DNA from: a bacterium
GTDB lineage: Bacteria; CLD3; SB21
DNA length: 52,700 bases
NCBI GenBank assembly: GCA_013360215.1
Contig: JABWCP010000039.1
Location: forward strand, 1-52,700
Reading direction: 5' to 3'
Below are positions 22,347-50,113 of the stretch, one piece after another. How positions within the stretch are numbered: position 1 is the stretch's first letter; every line of letters starts with the position of its first letter. The position numbers and the translations under genes were made by a program. The notes under the pieces were generated by a model. The model worked only from the letters and a program-made list of their open reading frames with translations. It ran no database searches and was not told the DNA's origin.

Positions 22347-23942
22347 TTATTTGGGAAATGTAAAAATAAATGTTGTACCGCTGCCGATTCGGGTTTCGAT
22401 CTGAACTTTTCCGCGATGCGCTTCGACAATGGATTTGACAATCGGCAAACCCAAGCCCGTACCGTGTTTTTTGGTGGTAACGAACGGTTTGAATATTTGA
22501 GGCAATACATCTTCCGGTATACCCGGTCCTGTGTCGGAAATACGGATCACCAAATCATTTTTTTCAAAAGCGGCCGTAACGGATATATGCCCCGCATCGC
22601 CCATTGCATCGCAGGCATTGGTAAGTATATTATAAAAAACACGGCAGATTTTATCTTTATCGAGAGGAAATTCCAAACCTTCAGGGATGGATGTCTGCAT
22701 AGTGATTTTTTTACCGGCGGTATCAAGCAACGGCATCACCATATCAAAAATTTCGCTGATGCGTACCGGTGTGGGACTGGCTTTGACGGAACCATCCCCG
22801 TAAATCAACACTTCCTGCGACATCCCCATCATAAGCGACGAAAATTTCACGATTTTTTCTACTAATTCTTTTCGCTCTTCTTCCGTCGCGGCTGTCTTGA
22901 TCAGTTTCGCATAATTATAAACAACCGACAGCAGGTTTTTAAAATCATGCAACAGCGAACTCGACGCTTTACCGACGGCGGACATTTTTTCGTCAAACAT
23001 CGCTTTACGCATCAGGCGCATATTGCGCAACACCATAGATACATCCGACGCCAGCGTAGTCATAAAGGCTTCATCTTCCGGTTCCCATCGAAACTTTTGC
23101 GCGGACTTCACGGCAATAAAACCGTGATTTTGTCGCGGATCATTGATCGGCGCGATCATTATACTGGCCGCATTTTTCCAAAACGCTTGCGGCTCCATCG
23201 TGTCACGAAATTCGTACGCCGCAAAGTCTTCCATCGTCAGTGTTTTTTTAAGAGCCGCTAACTTAGCCGTGCCTTTATCCGTTTCACTAAAATCGATCAT
23301 ACGCCAGCCCGACACTTCTTGAATGCTTGTATGGTATCTGCCCGACTCGGGATCATCCAATACTAAGAGTACATCATGGCATAATATCTGACTGCGAACA
23401 ATAACAGGTACAACACGAAACAACCCGACTTCTTCACGTTCGGCGCCGAGTGTTTTATTAAATTCGATCAAACTTTGGAAGCGTTCCAACTGTTTGGCGT
23501 GATAACGCTCCTTTTCTTCCATGGATTGCATAATCTGATCGTTGGACAAGCGCAGACGCATGCTGATCGTTCGTAGAATATTGACCGCTACCCGCGGTTC
23601 ACGGATCATCATCGCATTAAATTCGTTTTTACCGATCACACCGGCCACCGAATCCTCTGTAGCAACAACCCGTGCCGAACGCGGTGCATCATCGAGTAAC
23701 GCCATTTCACCAAAAAAATCGCCGGCATGCCGCTCGGTAAGTATCATCTCGCGACCGTCCAATCCGTTGCGTGTGATTTTAACATTGCCCGCGATCAACA
23801 GATACAAATAGCTTCCCGGCACACCCTCGTCAATCAGTACCGCGTTTTTCGGAAAATCTTTAATACGAATAAATTCTTCGAGTTTGGCGATTTCTGTCTC
23901 GGGCAAACCCGAAAAAAGACTGTTTCCTTTCAGTCGCTGCAT
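22347..23942 (-). CDS. cNMP-GAF hybrid sensor histidine kinase
   Basis: A 531-residue soluble kinase. Domains in order: cNMP-binding (about 5-125, with GDFFGEMALLDDAPRSARVVA), a linker coiled coil (130-165), GAF-like (about 165-310), dimerisation helix with phospho-acceptor His332 (LLHDFKNLLS), and an ATPase with N box NILTNACDAMGD (438-449), DTGPGIP (470-476) and GTGLGL (494-499). No receiver is attached and no response-regulator gene is nearby. An AAGGA site precedes ATG 23942, two bases after dacB. Confidence 0.92.
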   Translation of the reverse strand: MQRLKGNSLFSGLPETEIAKLEEFIRIKDFPKNAVLIDEGVPGSYLYLLIAGNVKITRNGLDGREMILTERHAGDFFGEMALLDDAPRSARVVATEDSVAGVIGKNEFNAMMIREPRVAVNILRTISMRLRLSNDQIMQSMEEKERYHAKQLERFQSLIEFNKTLGAEREEVGLFRVVPVIVRSQILCHDVLLVLDDPESGRYHTSIQEVSGWRMIDFSETDKGTAKLAALKKTLTMEDFAAYEFRDTMEPQAFWKNAASIMIAPINDPRQNHGFIAVKSAQKFRWEPEDEAFMTTLASDVSMVLRNMRLMRKAMFDEKMSAVGKASSSLLHDFKNLLSVVYNYAKLIKTAATEEERKELVEKIVKFSSLMMGMSQEVLIYGDGSVKASPTPVRISEIFDMVMPLLDTAGKKITMQTSIPEGLEFPLDKDKICRVFYNILTNACDAMGDAGHISVTAAFEKNDLVIRISDTGPGIPEDVLPQIFKPFVTTKKHGTGLGLPIVKSIVEAHRGKVQIETRIGSGTTFIFTFPK

Positions 23943-28197: not shown

Positions 28198-29925
28198 TTA
28201 AGCGGTGGATTGCGGCCGCTGCGATGTACGCGTGTTTTGAGACAACATACGTAATTCTTCGGCGGACGATAACATGTTTTTATTTTGTCGTAATGATTCT
28301 TTGGCGCCGGCATCAATATCTTTGATGCTCATCCAGAGCTGCTCCAAGGCGCTCTGCTGCTGCTGGATCGCTTGCGCGATCTGCTGGACGGACTCCATCG
28401 TCTGGCGCACCATCCAGTATATTTGTTCAAACGATTCGCGCGCATCCCCGGCGTGCCGGATTCCTTCTTTGACCTGCATCAGCTCTTTTTCACTGGCCAG
28501 TACCGATACTTGCGACGCTTTACGCACGTCGAGCAGGATTTTTTTGATCTCTTCGGTGGAGTCGGCGATATTTTGTGCGAGATGCCGGATCTCTTTCGCT
28601 ACGACGCCAAATCGTTCGCCCATTTCCCCGGCGCCTGCGGTTTCGATAGCCGCGTTGAAAGCCAATATTTTGGTTTGATCCGTGATGTAATTAATAATTT
28701 TGATCACATCTTCGATTTGCGTCATTTTGAGACTCAAATCCAAAATACGTTGTGCGCTGGTTTGCGATTCGCGATGTATCTGCTCCATACTCTGCAATGT
28801 ATCCGCTACATGACGTTTCCCGTCTTCCGCTTCCTGACTGCCCTTGAGCGTGGATTGATTGACGGATTTGGAATTTTCGGATATCTGCGCAACCGATTTC
28901 ATCAGCTCTTCGAGCGATGCCGTGATCTGCGCCAATGCCGAGGCATGATTGGAAGCGTAGCTGTTTTGCGATTTTAAGCCGGACAAAATGTGTTCAGCGG
29001 TCGCACCAAGGGGTTGGATTTGATCACGTAAAACGAGCGCCTCCCGTTTGGCCGTGGCCGCAAATCGTTCCGCCGTTTTTTGTAATCGGTATATATCACC
29101 CGCATGCAACATGGTATGACCAACCTCTTCAGACGGATATATGTCCGGACCGGACCAGAGTGTCAACCACCGATCATGCGCCGTCTGCACCGTACGGGTC
29201 GTAAGCCATCCGATAAAGCCAAACATGACAAGCGCCAAAAGTGTAATCGCAACCGGATGATTGTGATAATTATACAGCAAAAGACCGTACCACAGTGTCA
29301 TCGCGAGGATCGGGGCCATGACGCGCGTACGCAGACGAATCCAGACGATATCCGGATCGTTGGCGTCGGGCATTTGCGCCAAAACTTCGGGAAACCGCGA
29401 ACTGCATACATGAATTCGCCACTCCAGCACATAAAATAAAATAATGGAAAAGGGAATTAGACCAAGTAATACCCAAATCAACGTTTTATACATGTATTCC
29501 CATCCGGAAATCGACTGGATTACAAACGGCACGAGCAAAACCGATGAAAGCAATAAACTCATTCCCGCGAGGTACACAAAGTAGAGATAAAAAACCATCG
29601 TTCGGGGATATTTCAGCCATTCGACCCATATCCTGCGAATAGATTCTTCGGATAGCGTACCGCTATGGCTTTCGGCGGTCAATGTTTTTCGAAAAAGCGC
29701 CAGATGCATCATGCCGCCGACTACGATCGTGAGACCGACAACGAGAAATCCGGTCACGGAAACGAAAAACGATTCGTCCGGTGAAAGTTCAAACAACCGT
29801 TGATACGTGATCACATTCCAAATCGCCATCACCAGTGTCACGCACAGCGTGGCTAAAAAAGGTGACCACAGCATGACCCGGTTATCCGATCTGGAATTGA
29901 ATAAAGCGCTCGTTTCGTTTAACAT
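28198..29925 (-). CDS. Methyl-accepting chemotaxis-type transducer with six membrane helices
   Basis: A 575-residue receptor. Six hydrophobic helices (about 18-40, 54-76, 109-136, 147-167, 201-219, 224-243) replace the usual two helices and periplasmic sensor domain. No clear HAMP domain is seen. A coiled-coil signalling domain (about 290-560) carries the hairpin tip DQTKILAFNAAIETAGAGE (416-434) and FGVVAKEIRHLA, which binds CheA/CheW. The tip has ETAGAGE where most receptors have EAARAGE. It begins one base after the cheA stop. It is likely to sense a membrane-linked signal. Confidence 0.93.
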   Translation of the reverse strand: MLNETSALFNSRSDNRVMLWSPFLATLCVTLVMAIWNVITYQRLFELSPDESFFVSVTGFLVVGLTIVVGGMMHLALFRKTLTAESHSGTLSEESIRRIWVEWLKYPRTMVFYLYFVYLAGMSLLLSSVLLVPFVIQSISGWEYMYKTLIWVLLGLIPFSIILFYVLEWRIHVCSSRFPEVLAQMPDANDPDIVWIRLRTRVMAPILAMTLWYGLLLYNYHNHPVAITLLALVMFGFIGWLTTRTVQTAHDRWLTLWSGPDIYPSEEVGHTMLHAGDIYRLQKTAERFAATAKREALVLRDQIQPLGATAEHILSGLKSQNSYASNHASALAQITASLEELMKSVAQISENSKSVNQSTLKGSQEAEDGKRHVADTLQSMEQIHRESQTSAQRILDLSLKMTQIEDVIKIINYITDQTKILAFNAAIETAGAGEMGERFGVVAKEIRHLAQNIADSTEEIKKILLDVRKASQVSVLASEKELMQVKEGIRHAGDARESFEQIYWMVRQTMESVQQIAQAIQQQQSALEQLWMSIKDIDAGAKESLRQNKNMLSSAEELRMLSQNTRTSQRPQSTA

Positions 29926-29926
29926 A

Positions 29927-32848
29927 TTATCCGATCAGGCTTTCGACTGTGTCAATAAGATTGGTTTGGTCAAATGATCCTTTGACGATATAAGCATTGG
30001 CACCCGCTTCGATACCGCGACGCTTATCCTCGGCGGAATCGCGCGATGTCACGATCACCACGGGTATGTGCTGATACGAAGCTTCCGATTTGATGCGCGA
30101 AGTCAGCGTGAGACCGTCCATCGCCGGCATTTCCAAATCGGTTACCACAAGGTCGTATTTCTTTTGCTGTATTTTCTCCAAAGCATCCAACCCGTCTTTG
30201 GCCGTTTCGACATCGTAACCGTAGGCTTGCAATATGGTTTTCTCGATTTCGCGCGTGTTGAGCGAATCGTCCACGACCAAAATACTGCGCGCTGATTTGG
30301 GAATACTTTGCACTTGTTCGCGGACTGAAAAATCTTTGGTCGCACGGATGAGATCGGGCGCGTGCAAGACCATGATGATTTCGTTATTGGAAGCGACGGT
30401 CGCCGACGATATATGTTTGACCTTGGCAAATTGCTTCGGCAATGACTTTACGAGAATCTCCCGTTCATCAATGATATCATCCACCACAAATCCGGCTTTT
30501 TCGCCATTGGCATGGATAATAATCAAAAAACGTTCGTCGCGCTCTTCATCGGAAGCGGCATAACCGACGACTTCATTCAAACGCACGATGGGAATGAGCT
30601 GATTGCGGAGGCGAATCGCTTTTTTCTCCACGACTTCGATGATATCGTCGTGTTTGATTTTGAGTGTCTCGGCCACCGCCTGCATCGGCACGGCAAATTT
30701 ATAAGCCGCCGATTTTACAAACAACGCTCTCAGGGAGGTCAGCGTCAACGGCAGATGGATCGAAAATCGCGTGCCTACATTGGGCGCCGTGACCACTTCG
30801 ATATAACCTTTGATGGATTCGATCGCGCGTTTGACGACATCCATTCCATAACCGCGCCCGGATATGTCGGTGATCAGTTCCGATGTACTGAACGCCGGAA
30901 GAAAAATCAGATTGATCAGATCGTTTTCCGAAAAACGCGAGATATCCTGTTCGTCGGTTACGATTTTCTTTTCGATGGCTTTGGCTTTGATGCGTTCGAG
31001 ATCAATGCCCCGCCCGTCATCTTCGACTTCGATCAGAATGGTATTACCTTCATTGTATGCGGCGATACGCAGAAGACCTTCGGCCGTTTTGCCTGCGGCG
31101 ATGCGATCCGGCGACGGCTCTAGTCCGTGATCGATCGCGTTGCGTATCAGGTGTATCAAAGGCTCGTTGAGGCTTTCTACGATTTTACGATCAAGTTCGG
31201 TTTCCGCACCTTCCACGACGAGCTTCACATCTTTGCCTAAGTTTTTGGCAAGATCGCGTACGGCACGCGGAAATCCGTCGAATATGCTGCGGATCGGCAC
31301 CATGCGCATTCCCATGATACCGGTTTGTATGGCATTCAAAGACAAATCAAAATTGGCTGCTTCTTCGCGCGCGATTTTGATCACATCGGCCAACTCATCC
31401 GCCGTCTCCGATAAACGTTGGGACAGGTGCGGATTATCTATGACATTGCCGGCTTGGGCAGCGTTTTCGTAATCGCGGAGTTCTGAATTCCAATATTTGA
31501 GTGCCAGATAAATTTTGCGCAGTACGGCAATATGCTCTTCGGTTTTGATCTGTTTGGTCGAAATATCACCGACGGACTTGATCAGTTCGTCGAGCTTATC
31601 AATACGCACGTGAACAAACTGATCTGAATTGAGTACCTCTTCTTTTTGCGTAATGCGGCCGGCGTTGATTTGCGTTTGACCCAGCAGTTCACGCGAAGAT
31701 TTTTGTTCCATCAAAAGCTGATTGAGCTGATCGCGATTGATATAACCCAAAGCGACCAATCTTTCGCCCAGAGGCATGCGGGTATCGGTGGTCTGATTGG
31801 CATGCATCAGTTCTTCGCGCGTGATCAATCCCGCTTCGATCAGGCGTTCACCCAAACGATCCGGTCCCGACGCCCCGCTCTTAACTTCGCGTACGGGCCG
31901 CGTTTCACCCACGGGATGCACCGGTTTGCGAATCAAATCCCGGACAGCCTCTTCGGTAGGCACGGCACCCGCATTGATTTCATCCAGCATGTCCATCAAG
32001 GCGGCATTTTGAAATTCATCCTTTTCGGTAATGCGGATTTTTTCGATCAGATCATCTAAACTTTGATACGCCATTACCAATACCTGGTCGGCGCCAGCGC
32101 TCCATGTCAATTTTTTTTCTTTCAATCCGCGAAAGAAGAATTCGGCACGCTGACTGATATTGCCCACGTTTTCAAACTTCATCATGCGGGCGGAACCTTT
32201 GAGCGTGTGAGCGGCGCGGATAGCTATCTCCAGCGACGCGGCATCGTGCTGTTTTTGCCAAGCGGCGGTATGTTGTTTCAAATTACGAACATGTTCTTCG
32301 GCTTCGGTGAGAAACCGTTTGATAAAAAGCCCGCGATCCAGCGTCACCGTTTTGCTCGATTTTTTGGGCGTGACCGGCTCGGCGACCGGTTCCGTCGTCT
32401 CGGTGATTTTTTTATCCGATGTGTCGGCGCTTGCTTCTTTTTGCAATTCGTTGATTTTTCGTTCGGCGATGAGCGTGATGCGATGAAGCCACGACGAAAG
32501 ATCGGCTTCGGAATGCCCGTCGCGAACGATATCGTCCAGATGCGTATCCGTCTTATCAAGCGTGCGCAAAAACGTATCCATCACGGCACGTTCATGCATG
32601 TACTTTTGTTTGTGCGCATTACCGAACGCCTCCTCAAACGCATGCATCAGCTCGCTGATCGCGCGCAGATTGAGCATACGCGCCGAACCTTTGATGGTAT
32701 GCAGCGTGCGCAGGATTTCATCCGGTGCATCGGTATCGCCCGGATTTTTTTCGATACGGAGCAACGCATTGTTCAAACGCCGGATATTTTCCCGTGTTTC
32801 GAGTACAAACTTTTGAATAAATGTGCTGCGATCGAAGCGCGTGTTCAT
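29927..32848 (-). CDS. cheA: Hybrid CheA kinase: two Hpt domains, MshEN-like segment, kinase, CheW, receiver
   Basis: A 973-residue chemosensory kinase. Order: Hpt1 (His50, LHTIKGSARML), Hpt2 (His214, AHTLKGSARMM), an MshEN-like segment 331-382 with two RLG/LG..L...Q units ending at Gln352 and Gln382, dimerisation domain (about 410-545), ATPase (Asn570 in LIRNAIDHG, DDGRGID 610-616, GRGYGMD 664-670), CheW-like domain (about 700-835), and a receiver (Asp860/Asp861, phospho-Asp904, Lys956). No P2 domain is seen. ATG 32848 overlaps the cheR stop (ATGA). The Hpt and receiver domains suggest internal phosphotransfer. Confidence 0.95.
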   Translation of the reverse strand: MNTRFDRSTFIQKFVLETRENIRRLNNALLRIEKNPGDTDAPDEILRTLHTIKGSARMLNLRAISELMHAFEEAFGNAHKQKYMHERAVMDTFLRTLDKTDTHLDDIVRDGHSEADLSSWLHRITLIAERKINELQKEASADTSDKKITETTEPVAEPVTPKKSSKTVTLDRGLFIKRFLTEAEEHVRNLKQHTAAWQKQHDAASLEIAIRAAHTLKGSARMMKFENVGNISQRAEFFFRGLKEKKLTWSAGADQVLVMAYQSLDDLIEKIRITEKDEFQNAALMDMLDEINAGAVPTEEAVRDLIRKPVHPVGETRPVREVKSGASGPDRLGERLIEAGLITREELMHANQTTDTRMPLGERLVALGYINRDQLNQLLMEQKSSRELLGQTQINAGRITQKEEVLNSDQFVHVRIDKLDELIKSVGDISTKQIKTEEHIAVLRKIYLALKYWNSELRDYENAAQAGNVIDNPHLSQRLSETADELADVIKIAREEAANFDLSLNAIQTGIMGMRMVPIRSIFDGFPRAVRDLAKNLGKDVKLVVEGAETELDRKIVESLNEPLIHLIRNAIDHGLEPSPDRIAAGKTAEGLLRIAAYNEGNTILIEVEDDGRGIDLERIKAKAIEKKIVTDEQDISRFSENDLINLIFLPAFSTSELITDISGRGYGMDVVKRAIESIKGYIEVVTAPNVGTRFSIHLPLTLTSLRALFVKSAAYKFAVPMQAVAETLKIKHDDIIEVVEKKAIRLRNQLIPIVRLNEVVGYAASDEERDERFLIIIHANGEKAGFVVDDIIDEREILVKSLPKQFAKVKHISSATVASNNEIIMVLHAPDLIRATKDFSVREQVQSIPKSARSILVVDDSLNTREIEKTILQAYGYDVETAKDGLDALEKIQQKKYDLVVTDLEMPAMDGLTLTSRIKSEASYQHIPVVIVTSRDSAEDKRRGIEAGANAYIVKGSFDQTNLIDTVESLIG

Positions 32849-34308
32849 TTCAAATATTGTTTACAAGCATTGATCAGATAATCGGACGAATAACCTTGTG
32901 CCAAAAATGACACCGAAGTATCCTGTTTATGTTCTAAAATTTTGATAGTGTTGCGAAATTCACGCCGCGCATCGTCCGTTTTCCCGCTTTGGCGATATAC
33001 CGAAGCCAAATAATAATGCGCCATCGCAAGGTCTTTTTTCAAAAACAGCGCTTTTTTCAGTTTTTCCGTTGCGGCGGCAAATTGTCCGGCGTGGTAATCT
33101 ACCAGCCCGCTTAAAAAATAAACCTCCGCATTGAGCGCATCAAGCGCCATCATCGCATCGCAGGTTTTGCGCGCCAAATCGAAGTCTTCCTGCCCAATAT
33201 AGATGAAAGCTTTTAAAATCAAAAAAGGAATTTTAGGTTCTAGCCCGTCAGCGTGCATGTCCCATAATGCCAGAATCTGTGCATACGCGCCGTCTTTGTA
33301 CATTGCAAAGACCTGATCCAAACTGGGCGGCGCTTCCGGTTTGGTGCGTGACGACGCGGATCGGGGCGTTTGCGGTTTGGCGATTTCTTTCGGAGAAGCC
33401 GGACGATGGTGACGTTTCGATTCGTGAAGCGAAGGCGCTATCGTTTTTTTGGTTTTTTCTTCGGTTCCCGTTTTTTTCTGATACAAAAAGACACCGTCGT
33501 AATCCACCAGATCCAAATGGCCGAAATTATGATGCAACGTCTCGGATGAACCCAAAAACAAATAACCCGATTCATTGAGCACTTCGCTCAAGCGGCGATT
33601 CACCGATTGGATTTTATCTTTGGGAAAATAAATGGATACGTTGCGGAAAAAGATCACATCAATGTCGTGCAGATAATCCGGATAATGATCGTCAAACAAA
33701 TTGAGATATTCAAAACGCGTTATGGCGCGAATGCGCTCGTCTATGATCCGGTAATCCATAAGCCGTTGATCAGGGATGCGAAAATAGGTGTTAAGATACG
33801 ACGGGTCTATCGCACGGAAAGAATTGCGGCCAAAATTACCGAGCTGCGCTATCGTCAACGCGTTGCGATCAATATCGGTTGCCAGCACTTCGATATCAAA
33901 ATCACCGAGCAACATGCGCGTTTCGAAAAGGCTGATGGCGATGGTATAAGCTTCTTCGCCGGTCGAGCAGCCCGCGCTCCACACACGAATCCGGCGCTCT
34001 TTCTTTTTACGAAGCAACTCCGGCACGATGTGAGACTTGAGCACGCGAAAATGGGCCGGCTCGCGAAAAAAATACGTTTCATTATTGGTGATGGATTCGA
34101 TGAATTTACGCAATTCATCTTCGCCGGCTTCCCGGCCTGCGATGTGTACGTGGTAGGAATAAAAATCACTAAATCCGGTCTGCGTCATGCGCTCACGGAT
34201 TTTACGTTCCAATTCGCTGCGGCTGTCATCGGGTATGGCGATTCCGCAGAAATCGAGGATCGTTTTCCTAAACGTTTCAAATAATGCGCGGGTAAATTCC
34301 TGTTGCAA
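32845..34308 (-). CDS. cheR: CheR-type receptor methyltransferase with C-terminal TPR region
   Basis: A 487-residue protein that methylates receptor glutamates using S-adenosylmethionine. The N-terminal helical CheR_N part is followed by NNETYFFRE, the SAM motif VWSAGCSTGEEAYTIA (about 108-123), and FFRNVSIYF. After a basic, low-complexity linker (about 275-325) comes a TPR-like region (330-487). The start is TTG 34308 with a GAGGA site seven bases upstream that overlaps the end of cheB. TPR extensions are known in CheR proteins of non-flagellar chemosensory systems. Confidence 0.94.
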   Translation of the reverse strand: MQQEFTRALFETFRKTILDFCGIAIPDDSRSELERKIRERMTQTGFSDFYSYHVHIAGREAGEDELRKFIESITNNETYFFREPAHFRVLKSHIVPELLRKKKERRIRVWSAGCSTGEEAYTIAISLFETRMLLGDFDIEVLATDIDRNALTIAQLGNFGRNSFRAIDPSYLNTYFRIPDQRLMDYRIIDERIRAITRFEYLNLFDDHYPDYLHDIDVIFFRNVSIYFPKDKIQSVNRRLSEVLNESGYLFLGSSETLHHNFGHLDLVDYDGVFLYQKKTGTEEKTKKTIAPSLHESKRHHRPASPKEIAKPQTPRSASSRTKPEAPPSLDQVFAMYKDGAYAQILALWDMHADGLEPKIPFLILKAFIYIGQEDFDLARKTCDAMMALDALNAEVYFLSGLVDYHAGQFAAATEKLKKALFLKKDLAMAHYYLASVYRQSGKTDDARREFRNTIKILEHKQDTSVSFLAQGYSSDYLINACKQYLK

Positions 34309-34317
34309 CGGTTATCC

Positions 34318-35376
34318 TCAGGCGTCGGTTTTGATACCCGTCCAACGGGTTATTTGTTCGGCGATACGCTCCGCCGGTAAAACGATTTCCGCGGCGCCTA
34401 TGTCTATCGCGGCTTTGGGCATACCGAAAATCAGCGAAGTCGCTTCGTCTTGTACGATCGTATGTCCGCCGTTTTGTTTTATAGCCAGCATACCGTCGGC
34501 GCCGTCCCGGCCCATACCGGTCAAAAGTACGCCCACCGCATGCCGCTTGGCATGGGTCGCCAGCGAACGCAAAAGAACCGAACCCGACGGTTTGTGCCCG
34601 GATACGTCTTCTTTTTCACTCAGAACGATTTTGTTTTGCGCTCCGATTTCCAGGTGTTTACCGTTGGGAGCGATATATACCGTACCGCGTGCCAACGCCT
34701 CACCCTGTTCGGCGGACTTGACCCGAAGCGGCGACACGTCGGCAAGCCACTGGATCAGACCGTCGGTAAACCCGTCGGCAAGGATCAGACCGTCGGTAAA
34801 CCCGTCGGCAATATGCTGCACGACCAATACCGGCGCGGAAAGGTTTTTGGGCAAAGAACCCAGTATCGAAGCCAGCGCACGCGGGCCGCCGGTGGACGCA
34901 ACGATGCCGATGACACGCAAAAAATCACTCGTATCGTTGACGGTTTTGACATCCACCATTTTGCCTGAGATATGCGTAATCACTTTGACCCGTGCGATCA
35001 ATTTTACTTTGCGAATAAATTCTTCGTATTTACGCGCATGAAAATCCAATTCGAGGGAGGGCTTCTCGACCACTTCCAGCGCGCCAAACGATAACGCCTG
35101 AAACGCAATGCTCGCATCCGTACTGGAGGTGATCACCAAAATCGGCGTCGGATAGTGCGCCATGATTTGTTTGATCGCATCAAGGCCGTTCATGATCGGC
35201 ATCTGGATATCCACCGTGATCACATCCGGGCGCAGCGTTTCGGCCATAGCCACGGCTTCGCGGCCATTGACCGCTTTACCGACAATACGGATATCGTCAT
35301 CGGTTTCCAAAATCGTGGCGATAATGTCCACGGCGGTCGGCGAATCATCGGCAATCAGAACACGAATCTGACTCAT
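34318..35376 (-). CDS. cheB: CheB-type receptor methylesterase with a 10-residue duplication
   Basis: A 352-residue protein: receiver domain (Asp10/Asp11, phospho-Asp56 in VITVDIQMP, Lys105) followed by a methylesterase domain with catalytic Ser161 (VASTGGP), His188 (VVQHIADG) and Asp291 (GMGRDGADG). Residues 190-209 contain the segment ADGFTDGLI twice in tandem, because of a perfect 30-bp DNA duplication just after the catalytic histidine. The Ser-His spacing is normal (27, against 26 in E. coli) while the His-Asp spacing is longer (103 against 96). First gene of the cheB-cheR-cheA-mcp-hisS run. Confidence 0.95.
   Translation of the reverse strand: MSQIRVLIADDSPTAVDIIATILETDDDIRIVGKAVNGREAVAMAETLRPDVITVDIQMPIMNGLDAIKQIMAHYPTPILVITSSTDASIAFQALSFGALEVVEKPSLELDFHARKYEEFIRKVKLIARVKVITHISGKMVDVKTVNDTSDFLRVIGIVASTGGPRALASILGSLPKNLSAPVLVVQHIADGFTDGLILADGFTDGLIQWLADVSPLRVKSAEQGEALARGTVYIAPNGKHLEIGAQNKIVLSEKEDVSGHKPSGSVLLRSLATHAKRHAVGVLLTGMGRDGADGMLAIKQNGGHTIVQDEATSLIFGMPKAAIDIGAAEIVLPAERIAEQITRWTGIKTDA
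34752..34811. repeat. Perfect 30-bp tandem duplication inside cheB
   Basis: Bases 34752-34781 and 34782-34811 are identical and directly adjacent. The unit is a multiple of three, so the frame is kept and ten residues are repeated. Perfect identity at all codon positions indicates a recent event, or an assembly error. Confidence 0.95.
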
Positions 35377-35533: not shown

Positions 35534-36634
35534 ATGAAATCTTTGCCGATGTTACGCATCCCCATCGTACGTTATTATTGCCTGCATTTGCATACCCATG
35601 CACCGCACGATACGGTACCGTATCCTGATTTGTATGCCTCCTTTGCGCAGACCGCGTATTCACAAATGATACTCAGCGATGTCGCTTCGGATCAAAAAAC
35701 CATGCAAAAGCAGGCGCGCAATACGGCATTGGACGAATTTCAGGTTATCGAAAATTATACGGCCAAATTAGATGACCATTCTACGATCAATATCACCATC
35801 TACGAAGCCTACGATCTGCCCAAAGATCTTTTGATCGCCGATTTATCCGAAGAGCTTTTGGAAACACTGGAAATCATTTATCTTTTTTATAAAGGCGCTA
35901 TTTTCCCGGGCATTCACAAACTGGAAATGCTGCTTGATATGGGCGTCATCGCCATGTTGCCGTTTCGTGAAATTTTGTCGCGCGTGCTCCCGGATATGCT
36001 CAAAATCAATATACTCGCCGAATACCAGCTGATGAATTTTGACAAACACGATGACGATTTTATTGATTTCAATCTGATCTGGTTTCTCGGAAAACTCAAT
36101 CTGCAAACCGTGGACAAGTTTCTCAGCGATAACGATTGGCATCACGACACGCCTGATTTTAATAACCGCGACGAAGAATCACCGCCGTTCGGCGATGCGT
36201 ACGATCCCGCCGAGTCGGAATCCAATGACGCCGACGCGTCGGCCGGTGCATTTGATCTCAATGAAGAAGATCGTTTGCTAAAAACCGAATTGGAAAACGA
36301 ACTCAAACATTTTTATCAGGATCAGTCACATTTTTATACCCGCGTAGTCGGACTGCGCCATACGGAGTTTGACATCAGCACGCTGAGCGAAGGTGCGCGG
36401 CTGACGCTCGTGCCGGAACCCGAAAATACGCACGACCCTATGGCCGTGAGCGTGCACAGCGCCCGCGGTGAAAAAATAGGTTACCTCAAAAAAGAACTGG
36501 CGGCCTTACTTTTTTCGGAATTGCGCCAAGGCGTAGTTTTTCACGCCACCGTCGTCAAAGTTTTGCCCGACGCCGAAGAAGCCAATCTGCGCTTGCATAT
36601 ACTGGTCCGGAAGTGGACGCATCATTTCAACTAA
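35534..36634 (+). CDS. HIRAN-domain protein with an unrecognised N-terminal region
   Basis: A 366-residue soluble protein. The C-terminal 95 residues (about 270-362: FYTRVVGLRHTEFD, LTLVPEPENTHDPMAVSVH, GEKIGYLKKELAALL) form a HIRAN domain, which in helicase-like transcription factors binds 3' DNA ends and in bacteria often occurs alone or near nucleases. Residues 1-205 are helical with no family I recognise. Residues 205-245 are an acidic, low-complexity linker. There is no Shine-Dalgarno site before ATG 35534. The glutaminase gene follows after 28 bases. Confidence 0.85.
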   Translation: MKSLPMLRIPIVRYYCLHLHTHAPHDTVPYPDLYASFAQTAYSQMILSDVASDQKTMQKQARNTALDEFQVIENYTAKLDDHSTINITIYEAYDLPKDLLIADLSEELLETLEIIYLFYKGAIFPGIHKLEMLLDMGVIAMLPFREILSRVLPDMLKINILAEYQLMNFDKHDDDFIDFNLIWFLGKLNLQTVDKFLSDNDWHHDTPDFNNRDEESPPFGDAYDPAESESNDADASAGAFDLNEEDRLLKTELENELKHFYQDQSHFYTRVVGLRHTEFDISTLSEGARLTLVPEPENTHDPMAVSVHSARGEKIGYLKKELAALLFSELRQGVVFHATVVKVLPDAEEANLRLHILVRKWTHHFN

Positions 36635-40440: not shown

Positions 40441-43197
40441 TTGCCTAAATCCATTTCCGAAGCTGAAACCCGTTATTCCCTGATCGATCCCGATCTTAAA
40501 AAAGCCGGATGGAATCTGTCCGACCGGTCGCAGGTGGGGTTTGAAATTCCGGTCGACCGATACGACGGTAAGCTGGAAGAGGGGATCACCGACTATTGCC
40601 TCTACCACGCCAACGGCGAAGTTCTGGCCGTCGTGGAAGCCAAGCGAACCAGCCGCGATGCCCGCGTAGGGCAGAAGCAGGTTGAAGATTACGTCACTAA
40701 GATCGCTAAAACCCAATCCTTCCGACCGTTTGCCTTTATGGCCAATGGCACGGATATCTTCTTCTGGGATACCGAGGAATCAGCACCGCGCCACGTTGCC
40801 GGGTTCTTTTCACGTGAGAATCTCGAACGCCTGCTCTGGATCAAACAAAACCGCATTCCGCTAAGCACGATTCAGATAAAACAATCCATCGTTGACCGCG
40901 CGTATCAGGCGGAAGCAATTCGCCGCATCTCCGAGACCATCGAATTAAAGAAAAAACGTAAAGCCCTGCTTGTCATGGCTACGGGAACGGGCAAAACGCG
41001 CACAACGATGGCCCTGATCGACGTATTTCTGCAGGCCCGCGCCGCTCAGAGGGTTCTGTTCCTCGCTGACCGTGATGCCTTGGTGCAACAGGCCATGACG
41101 GACGGACTCAAACGCCATCTGCCCAACGAAGCCCGCGGACGTATACGAACTTACGACCTCGACAAAACCAAAAGGGTCTTCGTATCCACGCTGCAGACTT
41201 TGGAGATCTGTTTCAAGGAATTCACACCCGGTGATTTCGATCTGATCATTACCGACGAATGCCATCGCTCGATATACAATAAATTCACCGACGTATTGGC
41301 CTATTTCGATGCCGTTCAGATAGGCCTTACGGCTACTCCGGCGCAATTCATCGACCGCGATACATTCAAATTCTTCGATTGCGAAAATAACGCCCCGACC
41401 TTCCTGTATTCCTACGAGGATGCCGTCAAAGAAGAATATCTGGTAGACTACAACGTCTATTCCGCACAGACCAAATTCCAGCGCAAAGGCATCAAAGGCG
41501 TGGACCTGAGCGAGGAGGAACAAAACGCCCTGCGCGAGCGCGGCATTGATCCGGAGGACATCAATTACGAAGGCACCGACCTGGAACGCAAAGTGACCAA
41601 CCGCGACACCCTGCGGAAACAGATCGAGGAATTCATGGAAGTCTGTCACAAAGATTCCACCGGCCAGCTTCCGGGCAAGTCTATCGTCTTTGCCATCACG
41701 CAGGATCACGCCATGCGCATTGCGGAGGAATTCAACAAAATGTATCCCGAACATCAGGGGCGGGTGGTGCAGGTGATCACCAGCAAGATGGAACGCACGC
41801 GCGAACTGATCGATGCCTTCAAGAAAAACGACATGCCGCGCATAGCGATCTCCGTGGACATGCTCGACACGGGCATCGACGTGCCGGAGGTCGTGAATCT
41901 GGCCTTCATGAAGCCGGTCAATTCGCAGATCAAATTCTGGCAGATGATCGGACGCGGCACGCGCCCGCACGAAGCCTGTCAAAACTATGCCTGGCTGCCC
42001 AATAGCCGCAAAGAGAGTTTCCTCATCGTGGATTTCTGGGAGAATTTCGAACACTTCGAGATGATGCCCAAAGACGACAAAGGCCCTTCGCAGGTGCCCG
42101 TGCTCGTCACGATATTCCATACTCGCCTTCAGAAACTTCAGTTTCTTCTGGGCGACCAGTCTTCCGCCGATCTCAAACGCATCGTGCAGGACGTACGCGC
42201 GGACATTGCCAGGATTCCAACCGATTCTTTTACCGTAAAGAGATCCATGAGCGACCTGAGGCAGGTCACGGACGATGATTTCTGGGCTTATCTGACGGAA
42301 GACAAACTCGAACTGCTCCGTCTCAGGATCGCGCCCTTGCTCCGGTTCGTCACCGGAGTCAATCCCAAAGAAGCCTTTTTCATCAGCAAGATGGAACGTG
42401 CGGAACTGTTTCTTCTGCAGAAAAAAGACTTATCCGCGCTCATGGAATCCATTCGTGAAGACGTAGCACGTCTGCCGTCATCACTGCCGCAGGTAAAAGC
42501 GGTCGAAGAACACCGCCAAAATATATTAGCCAATAAATTCTGGACCGAACTCACGCTTGAACGTCTTGACACAGCCAAAAAAGCCCTCGCCCCGGTGATG
42601 AAACTGGCCGAAGACATCAAAACCGATCCCATCGAACTCGGCCTCGACGACATCATCGATTCCCGCCGGTGGATCATTCTGCGCGACAAGACCGGAAAGC
42701 AAAAGATCATGATCGAGGAATACAAAAAGCAGGTCGAGGAGAAGATCCTTGAACTGGCCGAAAAACATCCGACGATCAAAAAGCTCAAAGCCGGTGAAAC
42801 CATCACGGCAGGCGATCTGGAAGACTTAGACGATACACTTGAAAAAGAACTGATCCATCTCGGCCTTGACGAAGAAAATATTCTCAAAGCTTTCGGCGTG
42901 CGCGTAGGGAATCTCGTGGATTTTCTCAAACATATCCTGCACCTGGAGTCGCTTCCGACCTACGCATCCATCGTGCAAAGGTCATTCGATGCCTTTATTC
43001 TGGAACATAATTACAACGCCGATCAGTCGCGTTTTCTTCGTGTCGTGCAAAGCGTATTTCTGCAAAGACGCAAACTGGAACTGGCCGATCTGTATGAGGA
43101 ACCGTTTACGAATCTTGGAATGAATGCGGTGGAGAAGTTATTTGGGAAAGAGGAAGTGGATGAATTGATTATGTTAACAAGAAGATTAGTTGCTTGA
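40441..43197 (+). CDS. hsdR: Type I restriction endonuclease subunit R (EcoEI-like)
   Basis: A 918-residue motor-nuclease subunit that cleaves unmethylated DNA after ATP-driven translocation. The N-terminal PD-(D/E)xK nuclease has Asp51 and Glu66-Ala-Lys68, followed by QKQ. SF2 helicase motifs are TGTGKT 181-186, DECH 272-275, TATP 297-300 and a later QMIGRGTR. The C-terminal part matches the EcoEI_R_C type. The start is TTG 40441 behind a TTGGGG site. GC-rich codon use contrasts with the next gene. First gene of the restriction locus. Confidence 0.95.
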   Translation: MPKSISEAETRYSLIDPDLKKAGWNLSDRSQVGFEIPVDRYDGKLEEGITDYCLYHANGEVLAVVEAKRTSRDARVGQKQVEDYVTKIAKTQSFRPFAFMANGTDIFFWDTEESAPRHVAGFFSRENLERLLWIKQNRIPLSTIQIKQSIVDRAYQAEAIRRISETIELKKKRKALLVMATGTGKTRTTMALIDVFLQARAAQRVLFLADRDALVQQAMTDGLKRHLPNEARGRIRTYDLDKTKRVFVSTLQTLEICFKEFTPGDFDLIITDECHRSIYNKFTDVLAYFDAVQIGLTATPAQFIDRDTFKFFDCENNAPTFLYSYEDAVKEEYLVDYNVYSAQTKFQRKGIKGVDLSEEEQNALRERGIDPEDINYEGTDLERKVTNRDTLRKQIEEFMEVCHKDSTGQLPGKSIVFAITQDHAMRIAEEFNKMYPEHQGRVVQVITSKMERTRELIDAFKKNDMPRIAISVDMLDTGIDVPEVVNLAFMKPVNSQIKFWQMIGRGTRPHEACQNYAWLPNSRKESFLIVDFWENFEHFEMMPKDDKGPSQVPVLVTIFHTRLQKLQFLLGDQSSADLKRIVQDVRADIARIPTDSFTVKRSMSDLRQVTDDDFWAYLTEDKLELLRLRIAPLLRFVTGVNPKEAFFISKMERAELFLLQKKDLSALMESIREDVARLPSSLPQVKAVEEHRQNILANKFWTELTLERLDTAKKALAPVMKLAEDIKTDPIELGLDDIIDSRRWIILRDKTGKQKIMIEEYKKQVEEKILELAEKHPTIKKLKAGETITAGDLEDLDDTLEKELIHLGLDEENILKAFGVRVGNLVDFLKHILHLESLPTYASIVQRSFDAFILEHNYNADQSRFLRVVQSVFLQRRKLELADLYEEPFTNLGMNAVEKLFGKEEVDELIMLTRRLVA

Positions 43198-43283
43198 AGA
43201 TGGATGTAAAGAACTTTTTCGTGATATATAAATCATTGTTCTAATCTATTTGGAAAGACATTTGCAAAATAATGGGAGGTAAC

Positions 43284-46200
43284 ATGCGTTTTTTTGTATT
43301 CATATCCACAACTTGTCATAAAGATGCTCAAGAAAAGGGCTTTGCGAAGGAAATTGAGAAGCTGAGAATAAAGGTTGAAGCCGATCAATCAGTAGACTCA
43401 TGGGAAGATTTTTTGCCAAGTCCTATCATACAAAAGAAATTAGGGGGTTATAGGTTAGTCGCAGAAAAGCGAATCGTTGATGACTCCACAATGGCGATAG
43501 TATTTCTTACTATTTTGAAAAAGGGAACTCCGAAATATGAGAAATTTCATGGTGCAGAAGTCGAGTATTGTGAAAACCTTAAACCATCAAATTTACAAGT
43601 TACCGATGAAATCAGGGCTCGCATTAGAGAAGAAAATTCTGTACCAATTGTTCCTGAGCCGAATGACATAGAATACAGTTATCTTTTTGATCAGGGCAAT
43701 AGCCTGGATTTTGACGATGGCATTGTGTTCGAAAGTCATGAATGGGTCCAACGTATCTCCAAGGGTGAATACCAACAATATCTAACAGATTTCTACAATA
43801 TTGCTAGTGGCATATTTGGGGATGCGACAGACACATTAAAGATCAGCTCTTCAACTAGTGCACAGATCTTATTCCGTTACTTTCCTGAATCAAAAATATT
43901 GTTTCTGATTTCACCGATTACAAAAGCCAATCAATCAGAAATTCAGAAGATTCAGGAACAATTTGCGTCTATTTTAATGAATTCAACGGTGTCCCAAGAC
44001 GAATTATTGAGACAAAGCGGAAGATCTTATCCTGCATTAGTACTCGCTGATGATTTTGAAGTGTGGAGTGCCATTGAGTCTAACAAAGAGGGCAATTTGG
44101 CCCTTTCTCCAGAGGAATCAGTTATTCTAGAGTCCGTTTTCTTGTCAAAGAGACCCAAAGAAAAGAGATTTCCCCTGTTCATTAATGGAAGACCGGGTAG
44201 CGGTAAGTCTACGGTCTTACATTATATGTTTGCAGAGTTTTTTTTTCGACATATTCAGAAGTCGAAAGATCAGAGGCTAAAGCGGCCGCCCCTGTATCTC
44301 ACATATAATCCGAGACTACTGGAAAACGCCCGAGCCGCTGTGGTCAAAATAGTGACATCAAACCACAAATTTGCCGCAGAAAAAAAAGTATTTACGGAGC
44401 AGGAATTGGAGGAAACCCTCGATCAGGCATTTGAAGTTTTTCATGATTTTCTTAAAAAATCTCTGCCATCAGAAAAGTCAAACTTATTCCGTAAAGATAA
44501 AAGGATTGATTTTGGAGAGTTTAAGAAAAGATGGTCAGACCATATGAGGCGTGATTTCCGGAATGAACTAAAAAAAATCAACGCCGAATTAGCATGGCAT
44601 GTTATTAGAACATACATCAAAGGCATGCGTGACGATGAGGATAACTATTTTGACAAGGATTCCTATTTTGATCTTCCGGAAAAGAGAAAAACAGTCAGTC
44701 AGAAGACATTTGACTTAATTTATGATGAATGTTGGGAAGGTTGGTATTATCCATTATGCAATAAATCGCAATACTGGGATGATCAGGATCTGACGCGCAA
44801 GGTTCTTGATGAGGTTGGGGCAGATTATTTCCAATATCCAGCCGTTTTTTGTGATGAGGCACAAGATTTTACTCGGATTGAATTGGAACTTATTTTCAGG
44901 ATGAATCTTTTTTCACGACGACGGACATTACCGGATCAGATAAAAAATATCGCATTTTCATTTGCAGGTGACCCATTCCAGACTCTCAACCCAACAGGAT
45001 TCAATTGGGAATCAGTTTCATCAGCTTTTTATGAAAGAATAGTTCAACATTTGGATCCTTCTGGATCAGGGCGGCTTCAATTCAATCCTCAAGAACTGAA
45101 GAACAGTTACCGTTCGACACGTCACATCGTAGGAGTGTGCAATCTCATACTCTTAGTTCGCGGCATTCTCTTTAATATACCTAAGCTGCATCCACAAGTA
45201 TCTTGGTTTGAAAGGGATGCTTCAGTTCCGGAATTTTATGATATACAAAGTCAGCATTGTGTTGATCGACTAAGAGAGGAGGAGAGCATTACGGTTATCT
45301 TACCCTGTCAAGAAGATGAAGAATTAGACTACATCGAGAAAGACAGTATTTTAAAGGAATTGTCGGTTTCCGGAGACCGTCCAAGAACCTTCTTAAGTCC
45401 AATGGCTGCCAAAGGTCAAGAATTCCCTCGTGTTGTTATCTATAAGTTCGGAGATGATTGTGTTCGCAACTACCCAACTCTGTTAGACCCACTCTCTTCC
45501 GTAAAGCCTCAGGAACAGGACTTGGATAGGCTATTGCCCATGCAATATTTTATGAATCGTCTATATGTGGCAGCCAGCAGGGCTCAGAAGCGATTGATCA
45601 TTGTTGATACAGAAGATGGCATTAGCAAATTCTGGAATAATGCAATGATGACTAACCCCGATGCTCTTATTGATAAGTATAGAACCATGTTTGATCCGAA
45701 TAATCCATGGGGGACAAAAAATATCTGTCTCTGTCAGCCGGGCGTCCAGACCACAAAAGATAGAAAATGGTCCGAAGATCGGGAAAACCCTGAAGAGCTC
45801 GCAGAAGTAGCGAAGAACTTAAAGGAGGACGGAAGAAGAACCAAGAGTTCATATAAGTTGCGTCTAGCATCAGCAAATTTTGAGCGCGCTTCTTTACCTG
45901 ATGAAGCTAAAAGATGTATGGCATTGTGTTATGAAATAGAAAATAAGTATACTGAAGCAGCTAAATTGTATCAAGAACAATCCTTACACACAGAAGCTCT
46001 TGGGTGCTATTGGCAGGGGGGCTTGTTCAGTAATGTTGTAAAAAATGTTGCGTTTTCGGAGTATCCAGAGTACCGAGCGTCAGATTTTATGCTGGGAGTG
46101 CAAAGTGGATCAGACAGTATACAGTTCCTTGATTTTATTTCGAATGAAATGCGCGGCCCCAGGAAAAATAATATAATTGACAATCCGACATGGATTAACG

Positions 46201-47399
46201 TTTTTGAGAAACTGATAGCAGCGCTGGCGAAAATGGACAACACAACTGATGGTAACGATGCATATAGAAAAGTTATGGCAATTAGTCAAGAAGGTCTCCC
46301 GACGTCACAATACTTGGAGCTTGGAAAACTCGCATGCAAAGCAGGGCTTTATGAGGAAGCATTGAAACAGTTCAATAAAATCACGCCCAAACCGGTTGAT
46401 GCACCCGAATACGTTTTTGTAAAATCACAACTTTCGCCATTTCCGGAAAGTATTGAATGGCTGCACAAACAAAAAAATGGTAGTGAAATAATAACCCAAT
46501 GGAAAACGCATTCACTTTTGCTTGAGGAAAAATATGAAACAATAGTCTACAATGCTATTATTGAAAAGCAGGCGTTTGACCTCCTTCCTCAATTCATAGA
46601 GTTTCATCCTAAGTATGACTATTTTTTTAAAGCGCTTAGTGTTTATGAAAAGGAACAAGATGATATATCGTACGAGTTAATGGCGCATCGGCTGATTTGT
46701 CATTACGTAGATGAAAACCGATGGACAGAAGTGTTGAAGTTCTTGAACAGTAATATCAAGATAAAAAAGTTGGATTTAGGTATAAAGAATCGATTTGTTT
46801 TTGAATTTGCAAAATCATCACCGAAACTCAATGAAGAAAACGAAAAAGCCATCGCAGATTTTATTGAGAAGTGGTATATCAAACACCCAGAATCAATTTT
46901 TAGTATAAAGATAGTTGGGACGTCAGTTGAGAAATCAAATCGTATGATTCTTTCTCTTGAATTTTATGAAAATATTTGGAAGCACAAGAAATATGGATCA
47001 GAAGCAGATCTGGAATTTGCAAGAAGACGTTGGTTGCGGTGTAAAAATAGGCAAATAGAACGTGGCAAATCCACATCTCGTGGAATTGAGGACTTTGAAA
47101 AATACTCTGCGGAGTGGGGCTATTCTATTGATGACATCCCGCAATATGAAGATCTTGATGGTATATCTTTTTCAGACGAGTATAAAGTTCCAGTGCAGCA
47201 GCAAAAAGCACGAGCAAGTACGCGGGTCGAGATTAGAAAGGATACGATTTCTGAAGAGCAGCGACTGGCTATCAAGGATCTTTATGAAATTGGTTATTCA
47301 GTAGAAAAAATACGACATATATTTCCGACGGTGTCCAATAACACGATCGAAATGATAATTGACAGTAACATGACTGAAGCGCAGAACAAACACAAGTAA
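43284..47399 (+). CDS. Large SF1 (UvrD/Rep-like) helicase-ATPase with RelE-like N-terminus and TPR-like C-terminus, within the type I RM locus
   Basis: A 1371-residue protein. Residues 1-95 resemble a RelE/ParE-type fold (IEKLRIKVE, KKLGGYRLVAEKRIVDDSTM). Residues 300-775 hold SF1 motifs: Walker A GRPGSGKST 302-310, DEAQD 524-528, AGDPFQT 561-567, NSYRST 608-613, AAKGQEF 708-714 and YVAASRAQKR 761-770. Residues about 830-1290 are helical repeats of TPR type, and 1330-1365 look like a helix-turn-helix. ATG 43284 is chosen because GGGAGG lies four bases before it (an ATG 12 bases upstream includes that site). The gene is AT-rich and ends three bases before hsdM, so it is likely co-expressed. 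Confidence 0.85.
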   Translation: MRFFVFISTTCHKDAQEKGFAKEIEKLRIKVEADQSVDSWEDFLPSPIIQKKLGGYRLVAEKRIVDDSTMAIVFLTILKKGTPKYEKFHGAEVEYCENLKPSNLQVTDEIRARIREENSVPIVPEPNDIEYSYLFDQGNSLDFDDGIVFESHEWVQRISKGEYQQYLTDFYNIASGIFGDATDTLKISSSTSAQILFRYFPESKILFLISPITKANQSEIQKIQEQFASILMNSTVSQDELLRQSGRSYPALVLADDFEVWSAIESNKEGNLALSPEESVILESVFLSKRPKEKRFPLFINGRPGSGKSTVLHYMFAEFFFRHIQKSKDQRLKRPPLYLTYNPRLLENARAAVVKIVTSNHKFAAEKKVFTEQELEETLDQAFEVFHDFLKKSLPSEKSNLFRKDKRIDFGEFKKRWSDHMRRDFRNELKKINAELAWHVIRTYIKGMRDDEDNYFDKDSYFDLPEKRKTVSQKTFDLIYDECWEGWYYPLCNKSQYWDDQDLTRKVLDEVGADYFQYPAVFCDEAQDFTRIELELIFRMNLFSRRRTLPDQIKNIAFSFAGDPFQTLNPTGFNWESVSSAFYERIVQHLDPSGSGRLQFNPQELKNSYRSTRHIVGVCNLILLVRGILFNIPKLHPQVSWFERDASVPEFYDIQSQHCVDRLREEESITVILPCQEDEELDYIEKDSILKELSVSGDRPRTFLSPMAAKGQEFPRVVIYKFGDDCVRNYPTLLDPLSSVKPQEQDLDRLLPMQYFMNRLYVAASRAQKRLIIVDTEDGISKFWNNAMMTNPDALIDKYRTMFDPNNPWGTKNICLCQPGVQTTKDRKWSEDRENPEELAEVAKNLKEDGRRTKSSYKLRLASANFERASLPDEAKRCMALCYEIENKYTEAAKLYQEQSLHTEALGCYWQGGLFSNVVKNVAFSEYPEYRASDFMLGVQSGSDSIQFLDFISNEMRGPRKNNIIDNPTWINVFEKLIAALAKMDNTTDGNDAYRKVMAISQEGLPTSQYLELGKLACKAGLYEEALKQFNKITPKPVDAPEYVFVKSQLSPFPESIEWLHKQKNGSEIITQWKTHSLLLEEKYETIVYNAIIEKQAFDLLPQFIEFHPKYDYFFKALSVYEKEQDDISYELMAHRLICHYVDENRWTEVLKFLNSNIKIKKLDLGIKNRFVFEFAKSSPKLNEENEKAIADFIEKWYIKHPESIFSIKIVGTSVEKSNRMILSLEFYENIWKHKKYGSEADLEFARRRWLRCKNRQIERGKSTSRGIEDFEKYSAEWGYSIDDIPQYEDLDGISFSDEYKVPVQQQKARASTRVEIRKDTISEEQRLAIKDLYEIGYSVEKIRHIFPTVSNNTIEMIIDSNMTEAQNKHK

Positions 47400-47402
47400 A
47401 TC

Positions 47403-48899: not shown

Positions 48900-50113
48900 C
48901 TACTGTTCAATACTATCCCAAAGTCAATTTACGCGATCATGCTTTGTTAATAAGGGGTATTACGTTCAAGCCGCATCAAAAAACTGATATTCCTTCTGAT
49001 GATGCAATAGTGTGCTTACGTACTGCCAATGTCCAATCTAATGTTGATTGGAGAAGTCTTATCTATATTCCAAAGGCACTAGTAAAAAGGACTGATAAGT
49101 TATTGCGTGAAAAAGACATTCTAATATCAACAGCCAATAGCAATAATTTGGTTGGCAAGTGTTGCTTGATTCGCTCACTTCAAGTCCCGGCAACACTTGG
49201 GGGATTCATTTCCGTTATTCGCGCAAATGGTGAGAGCCTTGACGCGTCGTATCTTTATCATTATTTGAATTCTGACGAAATTCAAGCGCTTCTCAGAAGT
49301 ATTTCCAGGCAAACTACAAATATTTCGAACCTACCGACAGACCAATTGTTGAATGTTCAAATCCCTCTCCCTCCTCTTCCTATCCAGAAGCGCATCGCCG
49401 TGATACTTGAGAAAGCCGACGCCGCGCGCGAAAAGCGTCGCCAAACCATCGAGCTCACAGAAAAATTTCTCCAGTCCGCCTTCCTCGAAATGTTCGGCGA
49501 TCCGGTGACAAATCCGAAGGGGTGGGAAAAGGAGACCATGGATGAGCTGTGTGATAGAATTACAGATGGTACGCACGACACTCCCAAACGCCTAACACAA
49601 GGAGTGAAGTTCATAACTGGAAAGAATATTCGCCCACATAGGATTGACTTCAGCAATCTGGACTTTGTTTCGCAAGATGTTCATGAGGAAATCTATAGGA
49701 GGTGTAATCCTATATTCGGAGATGTTCTTTACACAAATATTGGAGTCAATCTTGGAACCGCCGTCATGAACAACCTGCATGAAGAATTCAGCATGAAGAA
49801 TGTTGCGTTGCTCAAACATAATCGTCAGAAACTGGAATCTCGATTTCTTGAATACATTCTCAATGATCAAAGAATGAAAAAGGCTCTTCTCAAGCGCTTT
49901 TCAATTGGTGGAGCTCAATCATTTTTAAGCTTAGGTAACATTAAAATGATTGAAATACCAGTTCCCCCTCTCTCCTTACAGCAAAAATTCGCCGCGATGG
50001 TCGAGAAAGTCGAAGCCATGCGCTTCAGGCAGCGCGCGTCGGAGCAGGAATTGGAAAATTTGTTTCACAGTTTGATGCAGCAGGCGTTTAAGGGGGAGTT
50101 GGTACTTGCTTGA
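48896..50113 (+). CDS. hsdS: Type I specificity subunit S
   Basis: A 405-residue DNA-recognition subunit with two target-recognition domains (about 1-155 and 205-350) separated by conserved helical regions. These are PLPPLPIQKRIAVILEKA through FLEMFGDP (157-203) and PVPPLSLQQKFAAMVEKV through AFKGELVLA at the end. The GTG start overlaps the hsdM stop and is preceded by AGGGAG. The recognition domains are AT-rich while the conserved regions are GC-rich, a mosaic typical of domain shuffling. Two fragments of its 3' end lie 1.8-2.1 kb downstream. Confidence 0.94.
   Translation: MTTVQYYPKVNLRDHALLIRGITFKPHQKTDIPSDDAIVCLRTANVQSNVDWRSLIYIPKALVKRTDKLLREKDILISTANSNNLVGKCCLIRSLQVPATLGGFISVIRANGESLDASYLYHYLNSDEIQALLRSISRQTTNISNLPTDQLLNVQIPLPPLPIQKRIAVILEKADAAREKRRQTIELTEKFLQSAFLEMFGDPVTNPKGWEKETMDELCDRITDGTHDTPKRLTQGVKFITGKNIRPHRIDFSNLDFVSQDVHEEIYRRCNPIFGDVLYTNIGVNLGTAVMNNLHEEFSMKNVALLKHNRQKLESRFLEYILNDQRMKKALLKRFSIGGAQSFLSLGNIKMIEIPVPPLSLQQKFAAMVEKVEAMRFRQRASEQELENLFHSLMQQAFKGELVLA

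Follow-up and report, generated by a model that had tools for sequence, protein, structure and literature searches.

The chemotaxis kinase CheA is usually regarded as a protein without a built-in sensor domain that receives its signals through chemoreceptors alone. Other histidine kinases under c-di-GMP, among them CckA, SgmT and PdtaS, are named in reviews, and they resemble the kinase described here insofar as such a control is proposed for it. CckA binds the dinucleotide in its CA/HATPase domain and is not a CheA with an MshEN module; neither SgmT nor PdtaS is known to be such a protein.

MshEN domains are defined by the motif RLGxx(LVI)(LVI)xxG(LVI)(LVI)xxxxLxxxLxxQ, present in two copies with a five-residue spacer (Wang et al., 2016; PMC5013675). 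The main text of this paper also names CheA and CheX as partners of MshEN, but for CheA it specifies neither position nor species and describes no test; its likeness to the protein analyzed here is that of an MshEN domain associated with a chemotaxis kinase. The main text of a 2023 survey of CheA architectures mentions neither MshEN nor T2SSE nor c-di-GMP, and a search of the main texts of openly searchable papers found no experimental test of any CheA-MshEN protein. The combination is already known and hardly studied, and our protein is a variant of it. According to the initial annotation, direct second-messenger control of CheA would be a notable link; the statement by Wang et al. (2016) makes the link less novel than supposed there.

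The effect of altered motifs has been studied in the GSPII domains of PilF. GSPII-C has a proline at the arginine position of motif II, yet its affinity for c-di-GMP is similar to that of MshE; in GSPII-B both arginines are absent and c-di-GMP is bound at 6 nM (PMC11731258). For GSPII-A, binding was measurable only once both glutamines and the motif-II arginine were restored (PMC12002112).

Domain Organization of CheA and Its Gene Neighborhood

The analyzed DNA (the window) is a bacterial stretch of 52,700 nucleotides. Its cheA gene is part of an operon-like block with the order cheB, cheR (TPR), cheA and MCP, and the same order is found in a relative (L046). The features are as follows:

34318..35376, minus strand: CheB, in the operon-like block with cheA (Pfam)
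32845..34308, minus strand: CheR with TPR repeats, in the same block (Pfam)
29927..32848, minus strand: CheA, 973 aa, Hpt1 - Hpt2 - MshEN-type module - P3 - HATPase - CheW - REC (ORF; Pfam Hpt twice, HATPase_c, CheW, Response_reg)
32585..32818, minus strand: Hpt1, residues 11-88, phosphorylatable His50 (best stretch of Pfam PF01627; LHTIKGSARML motif)
31979..32338, minus strand: Hpt2, about residues 171-290, phosphorylatable His214 (second Hpt stretch; AHTLKGSARMM motif; approximate boundaries)
31667..31861, minus strand: MshEN_N-type four-helix module, residues 330-394 (PDB searches, AlphaFold model and Foldseek, conservation)
31787..31858, minus strand: motif I, residues 331-354, with Leu21 replaced by Asn351 and Gln24 by Thr354 (sequence against the motif of PMC5013675)
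31703..31774, minus strand: motif II, residues 359-382, complete except for Pro359 in place of Arg1 (fits the relaxed motif of PMC5013675)
31319..31615, minus strand: P3 dimerisation region of divergent sequence, about residues 412-510 (between module and HATPase; no PF02895 score)
30743..31159, minus strand: HATPase_c (P4), residues 564-702, intact N and G boxes (Pfam; NEPLIHLIRNAIDHG, DDGRGID, GRGYGMDVV)
30341..30724, minus strand: CheW-like P5, residues 709-836 (Pfam)
29945..30283, minus strand: C-terminal receiver domain, residues 856-968 (Pfam)
28198..29925, minus strand: MCP with hydrophobic N-terminal segments, in the operon-like block with cheA (Pfam MCPsignal only)

The following hallmarks of CheA are present according to Pfam and motif inspection: Hpt domains with their histidine, a HATPase domain with N and G boxes and a CheW-like domain. 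The dimerisation model PF02895 gives no score, and the region following the module fits P3 in length and position while its sequence is divergent. In an independent CheA protein (L158), PF02895 follows directly after the MshEN-type module. The placement between Hpt2 (His214) and the dimerisation domain proposed in the initial annotation is in line with this arrangement, and its assignment of residues 331-382 to positions 31700-31860 was also accurate, with Arg331 encoded at 31856-31858 and Gln382 at 31703-31705. An hmmscan of CheA up to E = 1 revealed no P2 or CheY-binding model between Hpt and P3. The AlphaFold model of full-length CheA has a pLDDT of 46 and is informative on the helix pattern only. 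In the MCP no recognised sensor domain was detected by Pfam, which reported MCPsignal alone.

Two minor observations concern the neighborhood. The cheB gene contains an exact 30-bp tandem duplication (window 34752-34811) that produces ADGFTDGLIL-ADGFTDGLIQ just past the conserved VVQHI segment; it is missing from the relative and is either a recent mutation or an assembly error. A HIRAN-domain protein of 366 aa (window 35534-36634) adjoins the che block.

Identification of an MshEN_N-Type Module

When the segment alone was compared with all PDB chains, the matches included PilF of T. thermophilus (E = 2.1e-9) and MshE of V. cholerae (2.4e-4), and 11 of the 12 matches were MshEN/GSPII proteins, the last being the only exception. 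A three-sequence profile of the segment and two orthologues gave 4.2e-9 for PilF and 2.2e-5 for MshE. Furthermore, the AlphaFold model of the segment consists of four helices (4-12, 18-26, 34-41 and 46-64; mean pLDDT 79), and its best PDB match in Foldseek is MshE with c-di-GMP (5HTL, TM 0.73, 1.8-2.4 A), followed by PilF-GSPIIB with c-di-GMP (8PDK, TM 0.68). The Foldseek E-value of 0.065 is weak because the domain is short. A profile of CheA-type modules that excluded the lineage of the window recognized the segment at 5.9e-6; where a profile had itself been assembled from matches of the CheA profile, its E-values are partly circular, and the PDB searches are independent of such profiles.

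The profile search with MshEN that had been suggested for this segment was negative, as Pfam MshEN (PF05157) has no match above cut-off in the CheA protein, the segment or the genome. This silence could be taken to mean that the resemblance arose by chance in an amphipathic helical linker. We regard such a coincidence as next to negligible, and it is ruled out by the PDB E-values (2e-9 and 2e-4), the structural match, the absence of paired half-motifs from all 60,000 shuffles of CheA (0/60,000) and the decoy test with related profiles (0/1,848). As PDB search and structure agree, we judge the Pfam result to be a failure of sensitivity, by which automatic annotation would miss the module. Residues 330-394 are almost certainly an MshEN_N-type domain, and the likeness to MshEN that was first read from the motif pattern is thereby borne out by structure as well as by sequence; the lack of a structural match to MshEN, which formed part of the refuting condition set in the initial annotation, did not occur.

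Several other lines were followed and dropped. The RLG pattern at the DNA level occurs across the genome at the frequency of the control and is useless as evidence. A third motif starting at residue 388 (LLGQTQINAG) was rejected: orthologues keep LLG alone, and the model shows a single continuous helix. An origin from an MshEN-like pair inserted in DUF4388 (PF14332) was considered because these double motifs include, as in the window, cases with spacing 28 and cases without the motif-I residues Leu21 and Gln24. It was rejected on scores, the DUF4388-type profile reaching 42 bits on the window segment against 68 bits for the ATPase-type profile. No DUF4388 match, and hence neither of the halves that flank such a pair, turned up anywhere in this CheA at E-values up to 1, and the best value for the segment was 0.023. 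As a separate observation, the genome of the window has 11 DUF4388 matches, with 6-11 per genome across its family, and an MshEN-like double motif in the middle of the domain is present in L145:667-1725 (genome of the window), L092, L117, L123 and L140.

Motifs and Predicted Ligand Positions

The initial annotation described two units of the form (R)LGxxL...L...Q. Both LGxxL..G..L units are present, as RLGERLIEAGLITREELMHANQTT (331-354) and PLGERLVALGYINRDQLNQLLMEQ (359-382), but Gln352, with which the first unit was thought to end, occupies position 22 of a 24-residue motif with glutamine at 24 and is therefore not the ligand glutamine. The second unit also exists, but motif II begins with Pro359 at the arginine position and not with Leu360; every other position of this motif is retained. 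Motif I keeps Arg1, Leu2, Gly3 and Leu17, and two of the six ligand positions are altered, namely the stacking residue Leu21 (Asn351) and the phosphate-contacting Gln24 (Thr354), both of which are replaced in all three orthologues. The distance between the two LG pairs (Gly3 to Gly3) is 28 and thus one residue short of the usual 29.

The module shares with the MshEN_N domain of V. cholerae MshE (5HTL, PF05157) the four-helix fold, the tandem RLG-type motifs and a nearly complete motif II. It differs in its spacing (28 versus 29 in MshE), in the two motif-I replacements and in the proline for arginine of motif II; in addition, it is part of a kinase and not of an ATPase, and no MshEN_C subdomain was found in the window CheA. 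The closest solved relative and best PDB sequence match is PilF GSPII-C (in 6F8L). This c-di-GMP binder likewise has proline at position 1 of motif II and deviates from spacing 29 in the PDB-search alignment; unlike the window module, it retains Leu21 and Gln24 in motif I, its spacer is longer and a third motif is present.

The initial annotation had proposed a c-di-GMP input to the kinase. The MshEN assignment speaks for this idea, but the two altered ligand positions in motif I and the proline in motif II weaken it. As the literature on altered motifs points in both directions, the chance that the window CheA binds c-di-GMP may be put, judged from its motifs, somewhat below even.

Conservation Between Genera

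Orthologues of CheA exist in a single further genus of the same family (L009 and L010; L046 is the public copy of L009). The module segment is 71% identical between the genera, on par with the catalytic domain P4 (72%), in contrast to the flanking linkers (9-20%), Hpt2 (36-38%) and P3 (26-27%), and it is under purifying selection. Positions equivalent to ligand contacts are invariant in 15 of 15 cases versus 30 of 50 for the others (p 0.002), a difference that is supportive and not decisive because buried positions are mixed into the comparison and only two independent lineages stand behind the conservation figures.

These values bear on the idea that the module is a degenerate MshEN relic whose only role is that of a folded spacer separating P3 from the Hpt domains. 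The loss of key motif-I residues would fit a relic, and non-binding MshEN domains are known from XpsE and PilF GSPII-A. A spacer of this kind does not account for a segment that is conserved like the catalytic domain while its neighbors drift, and even the odd residues HANQTTDT are unchanged between the genera, so that we consider a relic clearly improbable.

MshEN-Type Modules in Other CheA Proteins

The same architecture recurs in unrelated CheA proteins. Among the long MshEN matches, the CheA protein L158 (genome G070) has the order Hpt-Hpt-MshEN-P3-P4-P5 as in the window, most genomes of the class of G070 encode one or more such proteins, and a further CheA with the module is found in genome G040 (L025). 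A plasmid search added CheA genes of Aeromonas sp. BC14 and Pseudomonas sp. HR96, which are annotated merely as “chemotaxis protein CheA”; their neighbors encode an MCP, a response regulator, a STAS protein and CheW. Related plasmid-encoded CheA proteins of Xanthomonas sacchari, Methylosinus, Methylobacterium and Sphingobium contain no such segment. In L158 and in the Aeromonas and Pseudomonas proteins the MshEN-type pair lies directly before P3, as in the window, and L158 also shares the two preceding Hpt domains. Motif I is intact in most of them, the spacings are 26, 33 and 36, respectively, and their kinase cores belong to CheA branches other than that of the window. As Pfam misses the module in the window and in L158 and the main text of the 2023 survey is silent on it, the domain is probably under-annotated.

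In the kinase-core tree, the CheA-MshEN fusions require at least six label changes, a single origin for all of them was obtained in 0 of 200 bootstrap trees, and the branch of the window stands apart, adjoining CheA proteins without the module. We read these trees as indicating that the architecture has been gained or lost repeatedly; an early single gain followed by many losses could also account for the pattern.

Across the CheA-type modules, Gly3 of both motifs (25/25) and Gln24 of motif II (24/24) are kept, a proline precedes the LG of motif II in 16 of 25, and the motif spacing ranges from 25 to 36. Among these modules, the replacement of the two motif-I residues by Asn and Thr was seen in the lineage of the window only. 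In the ATPase comparison set, the spacing is 29 in 15 of 15 sequences, a figure that overstates uniformity because the set was hand-picked and gap-free; the distance is greater in PilF GSPII-C and a few further cases.

The main rival to c-di-GMP binding is a role in protein docking: the module would replace P2 and bring a partner, be it CheB, a receiver protein or something else, to the phosphorylated Hpt domains, with no nucleotide involved. It lies at the site of P2, for which no model scores in this CheA, and P2 is absent from more than half of CheA proteins (PMC10782961). MshEN-type domains bind proteins too, as illustrated by the complex of the PilB N-terminal domain with PilZ (7LKN), a weak Foldseek match of our model, and both the variable spacing and the lost motif-I residues fit docking more easily. 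Docking leaves unexplained, however, why the motif-II glutamine and both glycines are kept throughout the CheA-type modules, and no PilZ protein was found in the genome of the window. We consider this role well conceivable, yet on the doubtful side.

Beyond CheA, MshEN pairs were noticed in the long proteins L163, L149, L152, L159 and L165, which show no ATPase or CheA signature in a regular-expression check. A free-standing protein of 52 aa with about one and a half MshEN motifs (L051:1531-1689, at about 171049 of G000:C1, and L050:1492-1659) adjoins a 3-hydroxyacyl-CoA dehydrogenase-like gene and is retained in a second genus; Pfam MshEN gives no match in it.

c-di-GMP Context and Proposed Mechanism

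The genome encodes seven GGDEF proteins. Six were examined, of which five are REC-GGDEF proteins; GGEEF or GGDDF signatures occur in at least four. Hence c-di-GMP is probably made in this organism and controlled by response regulators. Searches of the genome detected, besides the missing PilZ, neither a T2SS/T4P ATPase nor FlhA, which places the window CheA among few candidate c-di-GMP receptors; two T2SSE matches seem, judged by sequence, to be Clp-type ATPases and were discarded. This CheA is unlikely to control flagella or type IV pili. A second chemosensory cluster is located on contig C6, and its CheA lacks the module. A predicted kinase in the window (22347-23942) combines cyclic-nucleotide-binding, GAF and HATPase domains, with HisKA unscored by Pfam.

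We propose that the MshEN_N-type module, held by flexible linkers between Hpt2 and P3 at the place of P2 in classical CheA, might sense a cytoplasmic cyclic dinucleotide, likeliest c-di-GMP from the REC-GGDEF proteins of the genome. The ligand would be bound on the side of the intact motif II, its contacts to motif I perhaps being altered, and binding could stiffen or reposition the tether between Hpt and P3 and so alter how easily Hpt reaches the kinase. Most of the diguanylate cyclases being response regulators, CheA may act through REC-GGDEF proteins and c-di-GMP back on itself in a feedback loop. The matches to c-di-GMP-bound structures, the invariant ligand-equivalent positions, the proline of GSPII-C, the GGDEF set and the recurrent placement argue for c-di-GMP sensing. 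Against it stand the altered motif I, the short spacing, the silence of Pfam, the requirements of GSPII-A and the wandering spacing of CheA-type modules. A function of this kind is a reasonable hypothesis for the window CheA, weakened by the altered half-site, and we hold the whole reading, a cyclic-dinucleotide sensor that modulates the contact between Hpt and kinase, only tentatively, as it falls a little short of being probable.

A broader version would be that a distinct MshEN subfamily, marked by unusual motif spacing, usually a proline before the LGE of motif II and an invariant motif-II glutamine, sits at the P2 position in CheA proteins of several unrelated lineages and gates the kinase in response to c-di-GMP or a cyclic dinucleotide related to it; in the organism of the window, where neither PilZ nor FlhA nor a pilus ATPase was detected, it would close a loop with the REC-GGDEF cyclases. 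In this generality we regard the proposal as rather unlikely. If a module in CheA did sense a cyclic dinucleotide, the activity of the kinase would depend directly on whether the cell is sessile or motile. Of greatest use among the present results are the independent CheA-MshEN proteins, which in part come from cultured bacteria: as the module recurs in unrelated CheA proteins including those of Aeromonas and Pseudomonas, cultured hosts are available, and the plasmid-encoded CheA proteins make the idea testable there.

Elsewhere in the window, the region 40441-50113 carries the type I restriction genes hsdR, hsdM and hsdS, with a protein of 1375 aa between hsdR and hsdM that has weak matches to the Schlafen group and UvrD helicase. 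This region may be a composite defence locus.
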